Shown here: positions 3,260 to 57,529 of the stretch, one piece after another
Position numbering within the stretch: the stretch's first letter is position 1
How the letters are laid out: each line of letters opens with the position of its first letter
NCBI GenBank assembly: GCA_037951105.1
Contig: JBAMJV010000852.1
Span: forward strand, 62,001 to 126,000
Origin: Echinarachnius parma
Lineage: Eukaryota; Echinodermata; Echinoidea; Clypeasteroida; Echinarachniidae
DNA length: 64,000 nucleotides
Direction: 5' to 3'
Program-made: the position numbers and the translations under genes
The notes under the pieces: generated by a model
Database searches by the model: none
Told to the model about the DNA's origin: nothing
What the model saw: the letters and a program-made list of their open reading frames with translations, nothing else

Positions 3260-3477
3260 CTGGATATTGGCAGATGAAAAAGTGAACTTGATTGATATCG
3301 TTGCATGAATAGGATTCCCAAGTTGCACTGATGCTATCAATTGCACCACAACCGGAGAGGCTATCAAACTGATGGTAAGACAAGACGTTGTTCGTACCAA
3401 ACTCCACAGGGGTGTATGGGGGACTATTTCCAATATGCTGAGCTCCAATCCACGCCTGGATACTTGTGGCTGGATCT
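3260..3477 (-). CDS. CTLD gene exon C1: second half of the fourth CTLD
   Basis: The 218-bp exon starts after ...CGTTATAG (acceptor at 3479-3478) and ends at CCAG|GTAATT (3260|3259). It reads DPATSIQAWIGAQHI, then CGAIDS, WESYSCND and FFICQYP. These are the CTLD WIGA motif, the C2 and C3 cysteines, and the final C4 motif. It starts with the third base of a codon split with A1 (GG|A) and ends in phase 1. With A1 it forms a six-cysteine long-form CTLD. The EPN/QPD sugar-calcium motif is missing, so carbohydrate binding is doubtful. It is shorter than its paralogue C2 because the segment before CGAID lacks five residues. Confidence 0.85.
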
Positions 3478-9694: not shown

Positions 9695-9863
9695 CCAAGT
9701 GCTTTTAGATACGACTTGAACCCGTCATTCATGGCACTATCATCCACCACAGCTAACTCCAGTCCCCTTGCTGCGCACTCCGTGCTCGCCCCTTCTGCTG
9801 TACGCTTGAAGTGTGAAAACCAGAAGCATTCCCTCCCGTAGGGTAACATATTTGCTGGGCACA
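9695..9863 (-). CDS. CTLD gene exon A1: first half of the fourth CTLD
   Basis: The 169-bp exon follows the acceptor TTGTATCCTAG and ends GCACTTGG|GTAAGAAG. It reads CPANMLPYGRECFWF, then HFKRTAEGASTECAARG, then LELAVVDDSAMNDGFKSYL. This is the CP and EC pair of a long-form CTLD, the first helix with the C1 cysteine, and the second helix. It begins with two bases of a split codon (phase 1 entry) and leaves two bases (GG) that join the A of exon C1. Its length equals that of A2, and the two peptides differ at only about 12 of 56 positions, pointing to duplication of a D-B-A-C unit. Confidence 0.87.
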
Positions 9864-15307: not shown

Positions 15308-15537
15308 ATGTTTGTTGATTGATTGTCGTGTTGACTATCTGGCAGACTACACCTCTAGTATCAGAGTCTGTTACGCTCTGCGTGAACCACTTCCGGTCGC
15401 TCACTTTCATGTGCGCGATTTGATTGGCAGTGTTATCAGGTTCACTATTCCATTTAGACCAGCTTAGCACATCATTGGTCATGACATCGCGGTATGTGTC
15501 TTGATCAGCTAAGTTGTTGATTCCGAGCCAGTAGTTA
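15308..15537 (-). CDS. CTLD gene exon B1: second half of the third CTLD
   Basis: The 230-bp exon runs from the acceptor TTTTTTTTCAG to ACAT|GTGAGTAC. It reads NYWLGINNLADQD, MTNDVLSWSKWNSEPDN, KWFTQSVTDSDTRGV and VCQIVN. These are the CTLD WLGI core, a position equivalent to the EPN motif (here EPD), and the last cysteine C4. The exon is in frame (76 whole codons plus split codons at both ends). The inner C2-C3 cysteine pair is missing and WND is absent, so calcium-dependent sugar binding looks unlikely or altered. Confidence 0.87.
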
Positions 15538-16804: not shown

Positions 16805-17009
16805 GTAGCAGGTTGTGGCAGCACGTCATCGAGGAAAGTTTTGAGGAATTGGGTTTCAGTTTCCTCAAAGAACGATGGCAAGTCTCCGTTGAAGGTGGTG
16901 CGGCAAAACTCCCGGGCCTCGAACCAGTTGTCTGTATCGGTGCCTTGCGTGCTGCAGTACCGGTAGCCAGTGGTGGGACTCTGTGTACTGCAATCCGCCT
17001 GCTTACCTC
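16805..17009 (-). CDS. CTLD gene exon D1: first half of the third CTLD
   Basis: The 205-bp exon runs from the acceptor CCTATTCATAG to GCTAC|GTACGT. It reads GGKQADCSTQSPTTGYRYC, then DNWFEAREFCRTTFNGDLPS, then TQFLKTFLDDVLPQPA. This gives the N-terminal cysteine pair of a long-form CTLD, the first helix with cysteine C1 (AREFC) and the second helix. Entry is phase 1 (GA completes G|GA) and exit leaves two bases, AC, that join the T of B1. It is open throughout, unlike its paralogue D2. Confidence 0.87.
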
Positions 17010-18780: not shown

Positions 18781-19013
18781 CTGGATAGTTGCAGATGAAC
18801 ATGTGGACTTGACTGGGATCGTTGCACGGATAGTGTTCCCAAGATGCACTGCTGCGGTCGATTGCTCCGCACACGGGATCATCTGGACCGGTGTAGCTGT
18901 CGAACTGGTGGTAAGACAACACGTTGCTCGTGTTGAACTCCACAGGTGTGTAGGCTCCACTAATCTCGATCTGCTGAGCTCCAATCCACGCCTGAGTACC
19001 GGAATCCGACGCT
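18781..19013 (-). CDS. CTLD gene exon C2: second half of the second CTLD
   Basis: The 233-bp exon runs from the acceptor TGGCTTATAG to CCAG|GTAAGC. It reads ASDSGTQAWIGAQQIE, YTPVEFNTSNVLSYHQFDSY, DDPVCGAIDRSSASWEHY, then PCNDPSQVHMFICNYP. The WIGA core, cysteines C2 and C3, and the closing FIC motif are all present. It starts with the last base of a codon split with A2 and ends in phase 1. A canonical EPN/QPD motif is missing. The open frame is intact. Confidence 0.88.
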
Positions 19014-22092: not shown

Positions 22093-22261
22093 CCAACTGT
22101 GTATAGATAGGACTTGAATTCGTCATTCATGGCGCTATTATCGACCACAGCTAACTCCATTCCCCTTGCCGCACACTCAGCGCTCGCTCCGTCTGCGGTA
22201 CGTTTGAAGAGTGAAAACCAGAAGCAATCGGCGCCAAAAGGCAGCATATTTGGCGGGCACA
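22093..22261 (-). CDS. CTLD gene exon A2: first half of the second CTLD
   Basis: The 169-bp exon runs from the acceptor CTTTTTTCCTAG to GTTGG|GTGAGA. It reads CPPNMLPFGADCFWFSLFK, then RTADGASAECAARG, then MELAVVDNSAMNDEFKSYL. It carries the long-form CTLD cysteine pair, helix 1 with C1, and helix 2. Entry phase is 1 and exit leaves GG to join A of exon C2. It is the first intact CTLD exon after the signal peptide. Because its entry phase equals that of D2, the signal exon could splice here directly and keep the frame. Confidence 0.88.
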
Positions 22262-22626: not shown

Positions 22627-22985
22627 ATTTTTTCACTATTTTGGGTCTATTTTGGGGCTATTTTTCCACTAAATGGATGATTTTTGACTATTTTTTCAAA
22701 AAATAGTATAAAAATGGCCTATTTTTTACTATTTTTTTAAAATAGTAAAAAAAATAGGCTATTTTTTTACTATTTAAACAAAATAGCCAAAAATAGGCTA
22801 TTTTTTCACTATTTTTCAAACTTTAAAATCACATCAACAATTTGTTGGCTATTTTTTTCACTCTGAATTCCACATCAACTATTTTTTGGCTATTTTTTTC
22901 TCTCTGAATAAAACATCAACTATTTTTTGGCTATTTTTTGCACTTTGTTAGAACAATCAACTGTTTATTTCCTATTTTCCACTTT
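22627..22985. repeat. GGCTATTTTTT minisatellite
   Basis: Repeats of ACTATTTTTTGGCTATTTTT with an approximately 59-bp period carrying CATCAACT near 22830-22960. Confidence 0.8.
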
Positions 22986-22998
22986 GTAATTAAAAAAA

Positions 22999-25643: not shown

Positions 25644-25821
25644 GAAGAAGAAGAAGAAGAAGAAGAAAAAGAAGAAAAAGAAGAAGAAGAAGAAGAAGAA
25701 GAAGAAGAAGAAGAAGAAGAAGAAGAAGAAGAAGAAGAAGAAGAAGAAGAAGAAGAAGAAGAAGAAGAAGAAGAAGAAGAAGAAGAAGAAGAAGAAGAAG
25801 AAGAAGAAGAAGAAGAAGAAG

Positions 25822-25851
<30 letters not shown>
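25644..25851. repeat. (GAA)n array, about 207 bp
   Basis: Uninterrupted purine strand except for early AAAAAG changes. It lies in the intron between B2 and A2 and would be transcribed as UUC repeats. Poly-Glu, poly-Lys and poly-Ser frames are spurious. Confidence 0.97.
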
Positions 25852-26719: not shown

Positions 26720-26960
26720 GTGTTTGACGATTGACTGTCGCGTTGATTATCTGGCAGACGACAACCGTACTCAGTGCTTCCAAGTGGCACCGCATGTCGA
26801 CCACTCCTCGTTACTCAGTTGCATGAGTACAACGTCTTTTTCAGAATGGCTATAACTTGGTTCATTGTTTCCCCATGTGTTGAAGCTTATTACGTCGTTG
26901 GTCATGACATCCGGAAGGTGCCTCCCTTCATCTAAGTCGTTTATTCCGAGCCAGTAATAA
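26720..26960 (-). pseudogene. CTLD gene exon B2: frameshifted second half of the first CTLD
   Basis: Splice sites are intact (CTTTCTTTAG acceptor; CAAACAC|GTAAGT donor). It reads YYWLGINDLDEGRHLPDVMT, VISFNTWGNNEPSYSHSEKD, VVLMQLSNEEWSTCGATWKH and then TGA. The expected end, STVVVCQIINATVNRQT, continues in another frame. Between the shared TGG and GTCTGCCAG there are 41 bases against 39 in B1, so the exon (241 bp) is out of frame. Either a real disabling indel, a sequencing error, or a different splice site. Confidence 0.8.
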
Positions 26961-27016
26961 CTAAAGAAAGATAAGACATCATTACCCTTCCCGTTAATTG
27001 GATCTAAACCAAATAC

Positions 27017-27062
27017 AAAAAGTAACCCCCCCCCCCCCCCCCCAAAAAAAAAAAAAAAAAAC
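27017..27062. repeat. Oligo-C then oligo-A run
   Basis: About 18 C directly followed by 18 A. Confidence 0.95.
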
Positions 27063-27079
27063 ATGTTTATAATTTCATG

Positions 27080-27690
27080 ACCAAGAATCGTTTCAAGATT
27101 CCGTCTCGCCAATATATTTCTTATGGTAGTTAGGGATACATTACTTCATAGTTGAGTAGGCACAAATTAAGAGAAAATTTCACAAAGGTAATACTGATCA
27201 TCATTGCAGTTTATTGAGTATTGGGGAAATTTCAAATTGCACCTGTTTTATAATCAGCAATAAATGCATTTAACCACATCTGCCATTAAAAAGGCAAAAT
27301 GGATGTTATTTTCTCACAGCATTGTTTCACAGACCAATGAGACCATAATCAATGCATTCAAAAATGTGCTATTTCGCAAACATAATCAATGTATTCAGCC
27401 ACATGTGCTATTTTGTACAACTATGTACACAGGCAAGCGCAAGTTCTTGTGTCTTTGATTATCTTTGCTCATTCAGGCCATGAAGTGATGGATATCTCTG
27501 ATTTTCACACAAAATGTACAAAACAATTGTAGAAATATATAGTAAGACTCATAACTTTATTTTGAGTTATACTGGGTAAGAGGACATCTTGAAACTATTC
27601 TTGGTTTTGAAGTTGTGTTAGGTTTAGTAACTTCAATAACATGTGCCTCAACTGATGATGGGTTGATGAAATGTGTATTTCTGTGATCAA
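27080..27690. other. Intron, no feature recognised
   Basis: Nothing recognised. Confidence 0.5.
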
Positions 27691-27693
27691 GGA

Positions 27694-27841
27694 CCCGTTG
27701 CAGAAAGAGATACAATCGATTGTAAGTCAGAAAATTTGCGCGTTTCAACCAATCGGGATTTGCGCATTAGGAACACCTGATCTGAATTACAATTAAGTGT
27801 AACTTACAATCGATTGTAGGCCTATCCCTTTCTGCAACGGG
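27694..27841. mobile_element. 148-bp MITE with CCCGTTGCAGAAAG ends
   Basis: CCCGTTGCAGAAAGAGAT ... ACAATCGATTGTAAGT at the left is mirrored by ACTTACAATCGATTGTAGG ... CTTTCTGCAACGGG at the right. Confidence 0.8.
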
Positions 27842-27844
27842 GCT

Positions 27845-27990
27845 CTGATATGTTGAGTGATGTGTGAAAATGCCATGGTAAATGAGTGTCATAGACCAAG
27901 TCATGAGCGAATATGCAAAGTGATATTCGCTCTCTCATTGCCCAAACTTTGTACACAGTTATAATTTATCCACTAGATAATTAAAAATCT
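27845..27990. mobile_element. Partial MITE, ACTAGATCCCT family interior
   Basis: Shares GAGTGATGTGTGAAAAT, GAGCGAATATGCAAAGTGAT and the following stretch with 51980-52140 and 23930-24100. Termini are missing. Confidence 0.4.
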
Positions 27991-28124
27991 GATTAATTCA
28001 ATCATACGTTTATTTATAACAGAAAAGAAATTTGAAAAACAAAAGAAAAATGCACGTGAAAGTTGATTTAAAGGTAAAACAAACAAAAAATATATAAACA
28101 GAGCATAATCTCAAATTAATTGGA

Positions 28125-28183
28125 GGCACAACCCCCCCCCCCCCCCCCCCCCCCGTGCCTCCGTAGCTATATACGCCACTGAT
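28125..28183. repeat. G/C-tract element end
   Basis: An oligo-C run of about 22, then GTGCCTCCGTAGCTATATAC and GCCACTG. Read on the minus strand it begins CAGTGGCGTATATAGC, like the ends at 30735, 34700 and 35603. Confidence 0.55.
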
Positions 28184-28296
28184 CACTGCCAACAAAGTTA
28201 ACACATTCAAATAGGAATGGAATTAACACTGATTCTAGTTTTGACATGCCAGAGTACGTGAACTTACATGGCAGTGGGTGAAAGAAGTAAACGTAC

Positions 28297-28492
28297 GTTG
28301 CAGGTGACGTCAACCCGTCGAGGAAGTTTTTGATGAATGTGTACTCAGCATCGTCTAGAAACGACGGCAAGTCTCCGTTGAAGGTGGTGCGGCAGAACTC
28401 TCGGGCCACGAACCAGTTGCTTTGATCGGTACCGGATGTGCAGTAGATGTAGCCTTTGTCGGGCTAGGGCCACATGCAATCCACTTGTCCTC
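28297..28492 (-). pseudogene. CTLD gene exon D2: first half of the first CTLD, with in-frame stop
   Basis: The 196-bp exon has a good acceptor (TTTTCTTATAG) and donor (GCAAC|GTACGT). It reads GGQVDCMWP, then TAG at 28464-28466, then PDKGYIYCTSGTDQSNWFVA, REFCRTTFNGDLPSFLDDAE and YTFIKNFLDGLTSPA. Apart from the stop it is open, in phase and closely similar to D1. The stop aligns with a Ser codon of D1. It directly follows the signal peptide exon in the model, so inclusion would end translation about 32 residues from the start. Confidence 0.82.
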
Positions 28493-44637: not shown

Positions 44638-44658
44638 TAAGTAGAGGAATGCACTTAC

Positions 44659-44725
44659 CAACTACAGAGCAAACCAGGCTAAGCATACACAGAGCGAGTA
44701 GGTATGCTGGTCTTCCCCAAGCCAT
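44659..44725 (-). CDS. CTLD gene exon 1: start codon and signal peptide
   Basis: ATG at 44725-44723 opens MAWGRPAYLLALCMLSLVC, then SVV, and a split Gly codon at G|GTAAGTGC. It has a short positive N-region (Arg), a hydrophobic core of about 12 residues and small residues near a likely cleavage after VCS or VVG: a classic secretory signal. Phase 1 at the donor fits D2, A2 and D1 alike (all enter with two bases). The fold-back MITE at 44218-44637 ends only 21 bp into the intron. A TATA-like box lies about 65 bp upstream of the ATG. The start was chosen because it is the only ATG giving a signal peptide and a consensus donor. Confidence 0.8.
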
Positions 44726-54365: not shown

Positions 54366-57348
54366 AATAATAATAATAATAAACCATTTTTATATAGCGC
54401 ATAATCACAAAAAATAAATTTAAGTCTCTAAGCGCTTTAGAGGATTGAAAATATAAAAATAGAATAACAGACAGGGAGCGAAGAAAAGACAAGGTGAAAT
54501 GAAAAATGACAAAACTTTGACATACAGTGATTTACAAATTAAACAAATACGTTTTCAAAAGACTCTTAAAATCATTTACTGTGTCAACATGCTTGAGATG
54601 GCTCGGTAATTTATTCCATAACTCTGCGGCTGCCAGTTGGAAAGATCTTGCACCGTAAAAATTTGTTGATATTATGGGGGTGACTAAAAGAGATTTTGAC
54701 TGAGAGCGAAGGTTTCTTGCTGGACAATATTTTATTATCAACTGTTGTAAATAAGCAGGGCCTAATTCTTGCAAGCACATAAAAACCAATATTAAAATCT
54801 TAAAATCAATTCGCTGCTTAACCGGGAGCCAATGCAATTGTCGTAAGACTGGACTTAAATGCTCATTGAGTCGAGTGCGAGTAACCAACCTAGCCGCAGA
54901 GTTTTGTATTCGTTGCAACTTTTGAATCTCATTGTTAGGCAGACCATACAAAATACCATTACAAAAATCAAGCCGAGACATAACGTGGGCATGAACAAGC
55001 ATCTCTGTCGACTTTTTAGAAAGAAAGGGACGAATTGTTCCAATCTTGTGCAAGGCAAATGAAGCAGCTTTGCATATTTGATTTACATGAGTTGACAGTG
55101 TCAGATGCTTGTCCAGTCTCACACCAAGGTTTCTAGCAGAGTCAACAGTTTGCTTCGAAGTACTACCAAATTAAATACTATCGATCCTACCACACTGCCT
55201 AAATTTACTAGTAAAGTGAAGAACTTCAGTCTTATCTTCATTTAGTTTAAGACCATTATGCGCTGACCAATTCTTAATGTCAGCCATACAAGTCTGGAGT
55301 TGCTCGATTGCTTCAGTCTGATGACCCTTTTCTACCAAAATATAAACTTGTGTATCATCAGCATACATCATACCATTTAATTTATGTTTGCAAATAATAT
55401 CATGCAACGGGGCAACATAAAGGCTAAAAGCAATCGGGCCAAAAACCGACCCTTGCGGGACCCCGAGTGAAGATAACTTAACATCTGACTTGCAATTATC
55501 AATTACAACCGTGTGTGTCCTATTCTCAAAATATGATTTTATGAGTTCAAGAGCTGTACCACTAATACCATATCTATCATGCAAACGAGATAACAATGTT
55601 TCATCTGCAATCGTGTCAAATGCTGCTTTATAGTCAAGTAGAAGTAGAATTGCCTCTTCGCCTTTATCAAGGCACAGGAGGATATGATACTGTCTGTAGG
55701 CAGACTGAATCGTGTCATACAAGCTGTTGCCCTCAAGGTAACAAGTCAACTGATGAACCATGATCCTTTCAATTGTCTTGCCAAGAAATTTTAGATGTGA
55801 AATCGGTCTGTAATTTTTTAAGTCATCAGGATCAAGTCCAGTTCCCTTGATAATAGGTGAAATATGAGCCCCCTTGAGTGAATCAGGGAAGCGTCCACTT
55901 GTCAGCACCAAGTTAACTATCCTTGTGATGATTGGAGCCAGTTCATTAATGCAACTTTTTAGTAAATCAGTTGGGATTGGGTCCAATTCGCTAGTGGATG
56001 ATTTTGAGCGGGAAATAACTGTTTCAACCTGCAATGGAGATACATTTTGAAATTCATCAAAACGTAGATCAGTCCTCTGGAACATGACGTCATCGACTTC
56101 AGGACAAGATGAAGGATCAAGAGATGAAACAATGTCAGCAGTTTTGTTAGCAAAGAAGGTACTAAAGCGGTCAGCTAAAGAAGGCCCATCAACATCATTT
56201 TTTGGCAATGTTTTTTGAGATTTCTTACACATGTTATTGACTTTGTGAAAAAATTCTCTCGGACCACAGCCTTCTAGTTCCGTTGAGTAAAAGGCTCTTC
56301 TCGCTCGGATTAAGACTGAATTATAGACTGATGCCTCCTCTAGAAATATCTGATGATCAATTTCTAGCTTTGATTTCCGCCAACGTCTCTCAAGTCTTCG
56401 GAGTTTCCGTTTTGCACCACGACACTCATTAGTATACCAAGGCGACCCAGGTCTGGCAGTAATTGTCCTGATGGTAAGAGGAGCGTGATGATCAAGTATA
56501 CCTCGTAGTGTAGATTCATACTGTTCAATCAAGTCATCGGTGTCAAGTTCTGTGTGACGCATGCATAACTCTGAGCTTACAATATCCAATCGAAAAGTGT
56601 AAAGATCAATATCCTTTAACTTTCTAAACCTAATCTTAGTCCTTACAGGATCAGGTTTGTTGACTGAAAGTTTGCACAGAACTGCCGAATGGTCTGAAGG
56701 CAGATAACTGGTGCACGAGATCTGGGAGATGATGTCATCTGAAGCTCGAGTTATTATCAAATCCAGGGTGTGCCCTTTGAGATGAGTTGCAAAGTCTATG
56801 TGCTGAAGCAAATTGACTGATGATATCAGATCAGAGAAGGCAGCAGCATCACGGTCGTTAGGGTCATTGATATGGAAATTAAAATCTCCTGCAATGACAA
56901 GTTTGTTGGGCTCTGTTATAAGTTTCTCTAGGAGAATGGCAAATTCTTCGAAGAATTTTGGGGTCGTAGATGTACGATCTTTTTTCCTTTGAGGCCGGTA
57001 TACAACAACCAACCGAAGAGGTTTCTGATCCTTGCTTGAGATAAGGATGTCCATATACTCAAAAGAGTCAGGCTCACGTTGTTTTTGTTGTTGTACTACG
57101 GTGAAGTTCTTGTGAAGAAAAATGCCAATGCCCCCACCAGCTCTATCCTTCCGAGGTAAGTGTATGAGCTGGTGACTGGGTACGGATGAACTCACATCTG
57201 CCAAGCAACGGTTGTCCCTCGCATCACCAGTTAGCCAGGTTTCAGTTAGGGCTAGTATGTCAATGTGTTGAGCATTAACAAGATCGGATATCATGTGAGA
57301 TTCATTTTTGACCGATCTCGCATTCCATAATGCAAATGTCGAAAGAAC
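54366..57348 (-). mobile_element. L2-like non-LTR retrotransposon, nearly intact ORF2
   Basis: The ORF2 reading frame runs from 57348 to the stop near 54532, interrupted only by TAA at 55171-55173. It begins with an EEP endonuclease: LWNARSVKNESHM, ALTETWLTG, AGDFNFH and SDHSAVLC. RT follows with NYRPISHLKFLGKTIERIM, LLLDYKAAFDTIADE, GVPQGSVFGPIAFSLYVAPL and the catalytic MYADDTQVYI. After the TAA come NLGVRLDKHLTLSTHV, LRQLHWLPVKQRIDFKI and AELWNKLPSHLKH. The 3' end has AGCGCTTAGAGACTT, GCGCTATATAAAAATGG and (TTATTA)n, as in L2/CR1 elements. ORF1 is missing (5' truncated just before the endonuclease). It reverse-transcribes its own RNA at the target site if active; the stop makes that doubtful. 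Confidence 0.9.
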
Positions 57349-57490
57349 TGGACTCGGACTCGGTCTCGGACTCGTACAGTCTAGACTCGGACTCGGTCTC
57401 GGACTCGGACTCGGTCTCGGACTCGGATATTCTGGACTCGGACTCGGACTCGGACAGTCTGGACTCGGACTCGGATTGGGTGGACTCGGA
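57349..57490. repeat. (GGACTC)n array, 5' side of the L2 insertion
   Basis: About 22 hexamers with a few variants. Read in frame with the L2 ORF it adds a spurious Pro-Ser N-terminus. Confidence 0.9.
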
Positions 57491-57529
57491 TACAACACTG
57501 TAAAATACATACAAAATTATAAGAATATA

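Follow-up and report, generated by a model that had tools for sequence, protein, structure and literature searches.

This locus raises the question of what becomes of a lectin gene when both exons of its first CTLD are broken while their splice motifs remain in place. The window analyzed here is a stretch of 64,000 nucleotides, positions 62001-126000 of contig JBAMJV010000852.1 (C851) in the 1.2-Gb, 14,790-contig assembly of Echinarachnius parma. The sequence-only reading of this window had offered two answers, namely that the damaged module is skipped in the mature mRNA or that the gene copy is dead, and we examined the gene and its relatives with both in view.

Architecture of the lectin gene

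The gene lies on the minus strand and extends beyond the window, with five repeated D-B/A-C units reaching to about C851:39300. Each CTLD is encoded by two exons, either a D-B or an A-C pair, and by similarity the gene has about ten CTLDs. The damaged module D2-B2, which directly follows the signal exon in gene order and is the outermost CTLD, is one of these ten or so, rather than one of four (Table 1). The C1 donor presumably continues to unit 0, outside the window. The fifth unit (C851:45854-39341) is diverged and gave weak matches (E 3e-4 to 4e-6), and it also reads open. In units 2 to -1 each CTLD is interrupted by a phase 2 intron and its module begins and ends in phase 1, and hence a single module can be removed as a D+B or an A+C pair.

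Table 1. Exons of the lectin gene, in window coordinates unless C851 is named
Feature	Position	Strand	Remarks
Signal-peptide exon, coding part (MAWGRPAYLLALCMLSLVCSVV + first base of split codon)	44659..44725	-	donor GTAAGT at 44658, phase 1
Exon D2, N-terminal half of first CTLD	28297..28492	-	acceptor TTATAG, donor GTACGT, phases 1 and 2
Exon B2, C-terminal half of first CTLD, frame broken	26720..26960	-	acceptor CTTTAG, donor GTAAGT
Exon A2, intact	22093..22261	-	phase 1 acceptor; could accept signal donor in frame
Exon C2, intact	18781..19013	-	donor GTAAGC, phase 1
Exon D1, intact paralogue of D2	16805..17009	-	
Exon B1, intact paralogue of B2	15308..15537	-	
Exon A1, intact	9695..9863	-	
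Exon C1, intact	3260..3477	-	donor GTAATT
Unit 0 (C851 coordinates)	D 61827-61626, B 60995-60763, A 60140-59972, C 58140-57908		
Unit -1 (C851 coordinates)	D 55618-55420, B 52840-52605, A 51038-50870, C 48310-48075		

The first intron spans 16.2 kb, and tblastn detected no further CTLD exons between the signal exon and D2, on C851 to the right of the window, or in the first 2 kb of the contig. A scan of both strands at a donor threshold of 5.5, under which the known signal donor (5.0) also falls, returned no other signal exons, a negative that thus carries no weight. At about C851:38450-37950 we noted a Thr/Ser/Pro-rich reading frame, a possible stalk of the lectin, and at about C851:37530-37300 a frame with a hydrophobic C-terminal end, a possible anchor; we infer that these two frames are 3' exons of the same gene. 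The protein encoded by this gene, the 5' part of which lies in the window, is probably secreted or surface-bound and probably has a Thr/Ser/Pro-rich stretch after its CTLDs.

With exon junctions that are approximate, D1-B1, A2-C2 and A1-C1 scored 46.3, 34.1 and 22.7 bits against Pfam PF00059 (cut-off 22.6 bits). The D2 and B2 parts (56 and 62 aa) were scanned separately and did not match this profile; by tblastn they are clear paralogues of D1 and B1 (E 1e-21 and 1e-8). Sugar-binding CTLDs with a calcium site have an EPN or QPD motif together with WND. Inspection by eye of the translations of units 2 to -1 showed this combination in none of their eight CTLDs, and D1-B1 has EPD without WND.

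Among the other features of the window is an open frame of 781 aa at 55174-57516 (-), upstream of the lectin gene, in which Pfam recognizes endonuclease and reverse transcriptase domains and which is predicted to be a LINE-type element. The B2-A2 intron contains a 208-bp GAA array (25644-25851) and a region of CTATTTTTTGG-based repeats (22636-22995). The window had no match to viral contigs, and neither Rfam at its gathering threshold nor a tRNA scan with the bacterial code found anything in it.

Lesions in the first module

The in-frame stop reported earlier for D2 held up: the TAG at 28466-28464 (-) lies in the frame which both continues the phase 1 signal exon and encodes the CTLD half-domain. 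Translated in the frame of the signal donor, D2 reads GGQVDCMWP*PDKGYIYC followed by a normal half-CTLD, and the protein from a transcript including it would end at 31 residues, of which the signal exon supplies 22 and D2, with the split codon, 9. Close inspection further revealed that a 10-nt block of D2 (CCTAGCCCGA) recurs in the most similar open D exon (C5947:150.8k) with its register shifted by one base. This is suggestive of an origin of the TAG through small compensating indels rather than a point change, and if the TAG does conceal two indels then the lesions number more than two.

The frameshift claimed for B2 was likewise borne out, with 41 nt between TGG and GTCTGCC where B1 has 39 nt. 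In units 0 and -1 the B exon keeps its frame across the same stretch, which makes B2 the odd copy. Its offset is +2 or -1, and its 41-nt stretch has no runs of more than two equal bases. We also noted that the in-frame reading of B2 reaches a TGA at 26773-26771 (-), which the sequence-only reading had not listed. The 14 CTLD exons of units 2 to -1 besides D2 and B2 (2901 of 3338 nt), the D and B exons of units 1, 0 and -1 included, are free of stops and frame breaks.

In-frame stops are uncommon among the D relatives in the assembly: 25 of 28 matches to D exons had none, the stops being in D2 of C851 and on C6010 and C3988, and all 27 matches to A exons were likewise free of them, these counts being blind to frameshifts such as those of C5604 and C9777 among the 25 D matches and of C9777 among the 27 A matches. 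Gaps not divisible by three were considered as additional lesions and rejected, given that an open B exon of a sister gene (B2', described below) shows 2 to 7 of them against five relatives. Such frame-disrupting gaps averaged 5.5 in B2, compared with a mean of 1.48 among 21 intact pairs less than 85% identical, and 3.67 in D2, hardly different from the 2.98 in 50 intact pairs under the same limit.

Splice sites and exon phases

Both damaged exons retain their splice motifs and phases, as had been noted earlier, and their scores resemble those of intact copies. On a scale based on general consensus position frequencies that were not fitted to Echinarachnius parma, the acceptors scored 8.6 for D2, 8.3 for D1, 3.8 for B2 and 4.3 for B1, the D2 acceptor being the best of the eight splice sites scored. 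The corresponding donors scored 0.8, -0.7, 4.3 and 5.0, with 5.0 also for the signal exon. Rescue by another splice site appears unavailable on the same scale: the four in-phase candidate acceptors in D2 beyond the TAG all scored -0.7 or lower, none of them being usable, and no alternative donor above 0 was found in B2 or within 120 nt beyond it.

The signal donor, the D2 acceptor, the B2 donor and the A2 acceptor are all in phase 1, and therefore omission of D2 and B2 together preserves the reading frame. Thus, the first half of the earlier alternative stands as a mechanical possibility allowed by phase, while a long-dead gene copy is opposed by the 14 lesion-free CTLD exons in four units and by an omega of 0.26 for A2-C2.

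The sister gene and other relatives

Reading C9950:41295-75537 as a whole uncovered a sister gene in which both counterparts of the damaged exons are open. These exons, D2' (about 74894-74696) and B2' (about 46444-46206), have splice motifs and phases that fit, and they precede A2' (C9950:42965), which has 95% aa identity to A2. D2' would be spliced to B2' across a 28-kb intron. The DNA search alone gave no close B2 on C9950, and a loss of D2-B2 from the sister gene was rejected upon reading C9950:44466-63000, where the open B2' was found. Across the genome, DNA searches recovered 17 matches to D2 and 9 to B2, with only the window's own copy identical in each case, and these searches of the assembly found no second haplotype copy of either exon.

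Exons of the D0 and D-1 types recur on C851, C9950, C5947 and C8862, and those of the D1 type on C851 and C9950, with no stop in any of the matched parts. A second signal exon lies at C851:16175-16107 (91% at the aa level, with 94% over 618 nt for the surrounding DNA) and is accompanied by a TATA-like motif; a tandem sister gene would begin here and continue beyond the left end of C851. Given that the 16.1 kb from this exon to the contig end plus 0.6 kb on C9950 resembles the 16.2-kb first intron, the left part of C851 and the right part of C9950 may belong to one sister gene.

On C5947 the most upstream D exon found (150828-150616) is open and consists of a D2-like head joined to a D-1-like tail. 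Downstream of it are a D fragment without its front half (149589-149503) and a B exon of the B1 type. The hybrid and the fragment together look like products of gene conversion or unequal crossing over, as judged from their mosaic structure. Damage was also seen in a D-B pair at the start of C5604 (about 1009-2065), where the frame of D is broken and B contains a TGA; the A and C exons that follow are open. On C9777, which carries a near copy, the D, B and A exons are all broken in frame, and the D exon of C6010 contains several such breaks.

Selection and age of the damage

Comparison of D2-B2 with D1-B1 over 130 codons gave a dS of 0.73 (0.46-1.18), a dN of 0.31 and an omega of 0.42 (bootstrap 0.24-0.71), and that of A2-C2 with A1-C1 over 129 codons gave a dS of 0.75 (0.46-1.20), a dN of 0.17 and an omega of 0.23 (0.12-0.39). 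The similar dS of the two pairs is consistent with the joint duplication of a two-CTLD unit. We rejected the raised protein change in D2-B2 (0.42 versus 0.23 for A-C) as a proof of decay: the intervals overlap, and the excess emerged as a general trait of D-B modules once intact D-B units served as outgroups. D-B modules evolve faster as a class, and D2-B2 does not stand out among them.

In branch models that left out the D2 stop codon and the stretch of the B2 break, the D2-B2 branch had an omega of 0.51 against 0.56 elsewhere with four units (LRT 0.04), and 0.46 against 0.60 after addition of the sister-gene module (LRT 0.37), for which three topologies were within about 1.1 log units of each other. 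An omega of 1 on this branch was not rejected at the 5% level with four units (LRT 2.81) or with the added module (LRT 3.73). For A2-C2, an omega of 1 was rejected (LRT 11.8), indicating purifying selection, with the value of 0.26 being an average over the time since the unit duplication.

Nine assumed rate settings predict some 8-39 disabling lesions for a D2-B2 branch that was neutral throughout. Entering the two observed lesions puts the part of the branch that was neutral at about 0.05-0.24, the limits being wide (0.01-0.85). Given the lack of an excess in omega and lesions far fewer than the neutral expectation, the lesions are probably recent, or else not real. Since an omega of 1 was not rejected on this branch, the decay may also be older. 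With a decay so short, the intact splice sites are unsurprising, the calculation giving all eight splice bases a 65-80% chance of being untouched.

A proposed recent module loss and its alternatives

The explanation we favor, in which we place about even confidence, is that D2-B2 is a recently pseudogenized module in a gene that otherwise can code, and that transcripts join the signal exon to A2. The encoded protein would have a signal peptide followed by five repeated two-CTLD units and then, probably, the Thr/Ser/Pro-rich stretch. Small mutations, namely the TAG in D2 and the net frameshift in B2, would recently have removed the coding ability of D2-B2. Direct splicing of the signal exon to A2 would keep the frame and leave nine CTLDs in the protein, whereas transcripts including D2 would be expected to be degraded on account of their early stop. 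Three elements of this explanation are inferred: presence of the lesions in the animal, skipping of the module, and expression of the remaining exons. Recent pseudogenization of one module in a tandem array would in itself be an ordinary event.

The most serious rival, which we consider rather unlikely, is that the lesions are local consensus errors of the assembly and that D2-B2 is intact in the animal as the first of ten CTLDs. Its weight derives from the indels of C9777 and from the out-of-register block that contains the D2 TAG. Over 1790 aligned nt, C9777 and C5604 differ by 19 mismatches, and C9777 has 16 single extra bases where C5604 has only 2. Over four aligned pieces of C9777:17992-22808 and C5604:901-6200, one-base insertions number 37 in C9777 against 6 in C5604, which looks like unpolished assembly. 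Hence, either one-base indels reach about 1% in stretches of the assembly, or C9777 decays in an oddly one-sided manner. Errors of this kind would be in keeping with lesions that can both be read as small indels, with a substitution pattern in D2-B2 no different from that of intact sister modules, and with the open state of the corresponding D-B pair of the sister gene. However, the 2901 nt of the other 14 CTLD exons on the same contig are without a single frame lesion, and the error rate would therefore need to be special to the 437 nt of D2-B2. Moreover, the B2 offset is +2 or -1, while +1 dominates in C9777, and the affected stretch lacks the longer runs of equal bases. The clustering of the lesions is weak evidence, since two random lesions would share one of eight modules about 1/8 of the time.

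A gene copy that is dying as a whole, being not needed or not expressed, might merely have taken its first hits in the first module. Exons 94-100% identical in DNA to A2, D1, D0, D-1 and B0 exist on C9950, and one copy may therefore be redundant; nevertheless, the signal exon is open with a consensus donor and the other CTLD exons of four units are undamaged. With the constraint on A2-C2 also opposing it, even as an average since the unit duplication, we regard a dying copy as improbable. Far less probable still is the retention of D2 as a poison exon, whereby inclusion would introduce a stop and lead to removal of the mRNA and omission would give the protein. The symmetric phases and the strength of the D2 acceptor would suit such a switch, but the stop is not conserved, with the D exon of the sister gene open and 25 of the 28 D matches in the genome lacking an in-frame stop, and the separate lesion of B2 would be superfluous.

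A broader possibility concerns the position of the module. The first modules of the two sister genes differ by 24-26%, with D2 and D2' 76.3% identical over 190 aligned nt and B2 and B2' 74.4% identical over 227, while the five other exons compared differ by 0-6%. The identities between C851 and C9950 for these are 94.1% for D1, 97.5% for D0, 97.0% for D-1, 100% for B0 and 94.3% of 209 nt for A2 with its flanks. This contrast makes it conceivable, if distinctly doubtful, that the outermost CTLD is the variable end of the family, with later modules homogenized by gene conversion and the tip replaced, diversified or discarded, D2-B2 being a discarded tip. In the same context belong the D2-like/D-1-like hybrid as the most upstream D exon of C5947 and the damaged related pair of C5604. 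The D tree leaves D2 and D2' unresolved as direct counterparts, and hence fast change and replacement by an older module are equally likely. The divergent first module beside nearly identical later ones would, given a few more genomes, make gene conversion and tip diversification testable in a multi-CTLD family.

If the recent loss of D2-B2 is real, the locus would show cleanly, and on a small scale, how a protein built of repeats can lose a module: symmetric exon phases allow the outermost domain to be shed by small mutations alone. Gene models here risk truncating the protein after the signal peptide or silently omitting D2-B2.

Comparison with known systems

A literature search returned no report that we recognized as describing this locus, which is a weak negative. 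Serial CTLDs after a signal peptide are found in the mannose receptor family, whose members have ricin-type, fibronectin II and transmembrane parts besides the CTLDs. D1-B1 weakly matches macrophage mannose receptor chains (E 0.0066 and 0.007), and the Echinarachnius parma gene resembles mannose-receptor-like proteins in having serial CTLDs behind a signal peptide. It differs from them in its ten CTLDs by similarity, in the phase 2 intron that splits eight of these (units 2 to -1), and probably in its Thr/Ser/Pro-rich end.

Both the loss of single duplicated exons through stops or frameshifts and the expansion of invertebrate lectin repertoires are already known. In the chemoreceptor genes of Drosophila (Gr39a and others), stops, frameshifts and deletions have degraded single duplicated exons in some species, or have led to their loss, and the loci as a whole stay under purifying selection (PMC2204066). 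The likeness lies in the degradation of a single copy among duplicated exons of one gene. However, the chemoreceptor copies are large alternatively spliced exons joined to shared small exons (PMC2204066), whereas the lectin copies are serial modules of one long protein, for which alternative use is putative. Expanded C-type lectin repertoires have been named for some echinoderms, lancelets and bivalves (PMC10140915), and the at least 150 Lectin_C matches scored in this genome, from 619 candidates, accord with such invertebrate expansions. Unlike that account of expanded repertoires, the main text of which has no mention of pseudogene (PMC10140915), the present case concerns damage inside one gene.
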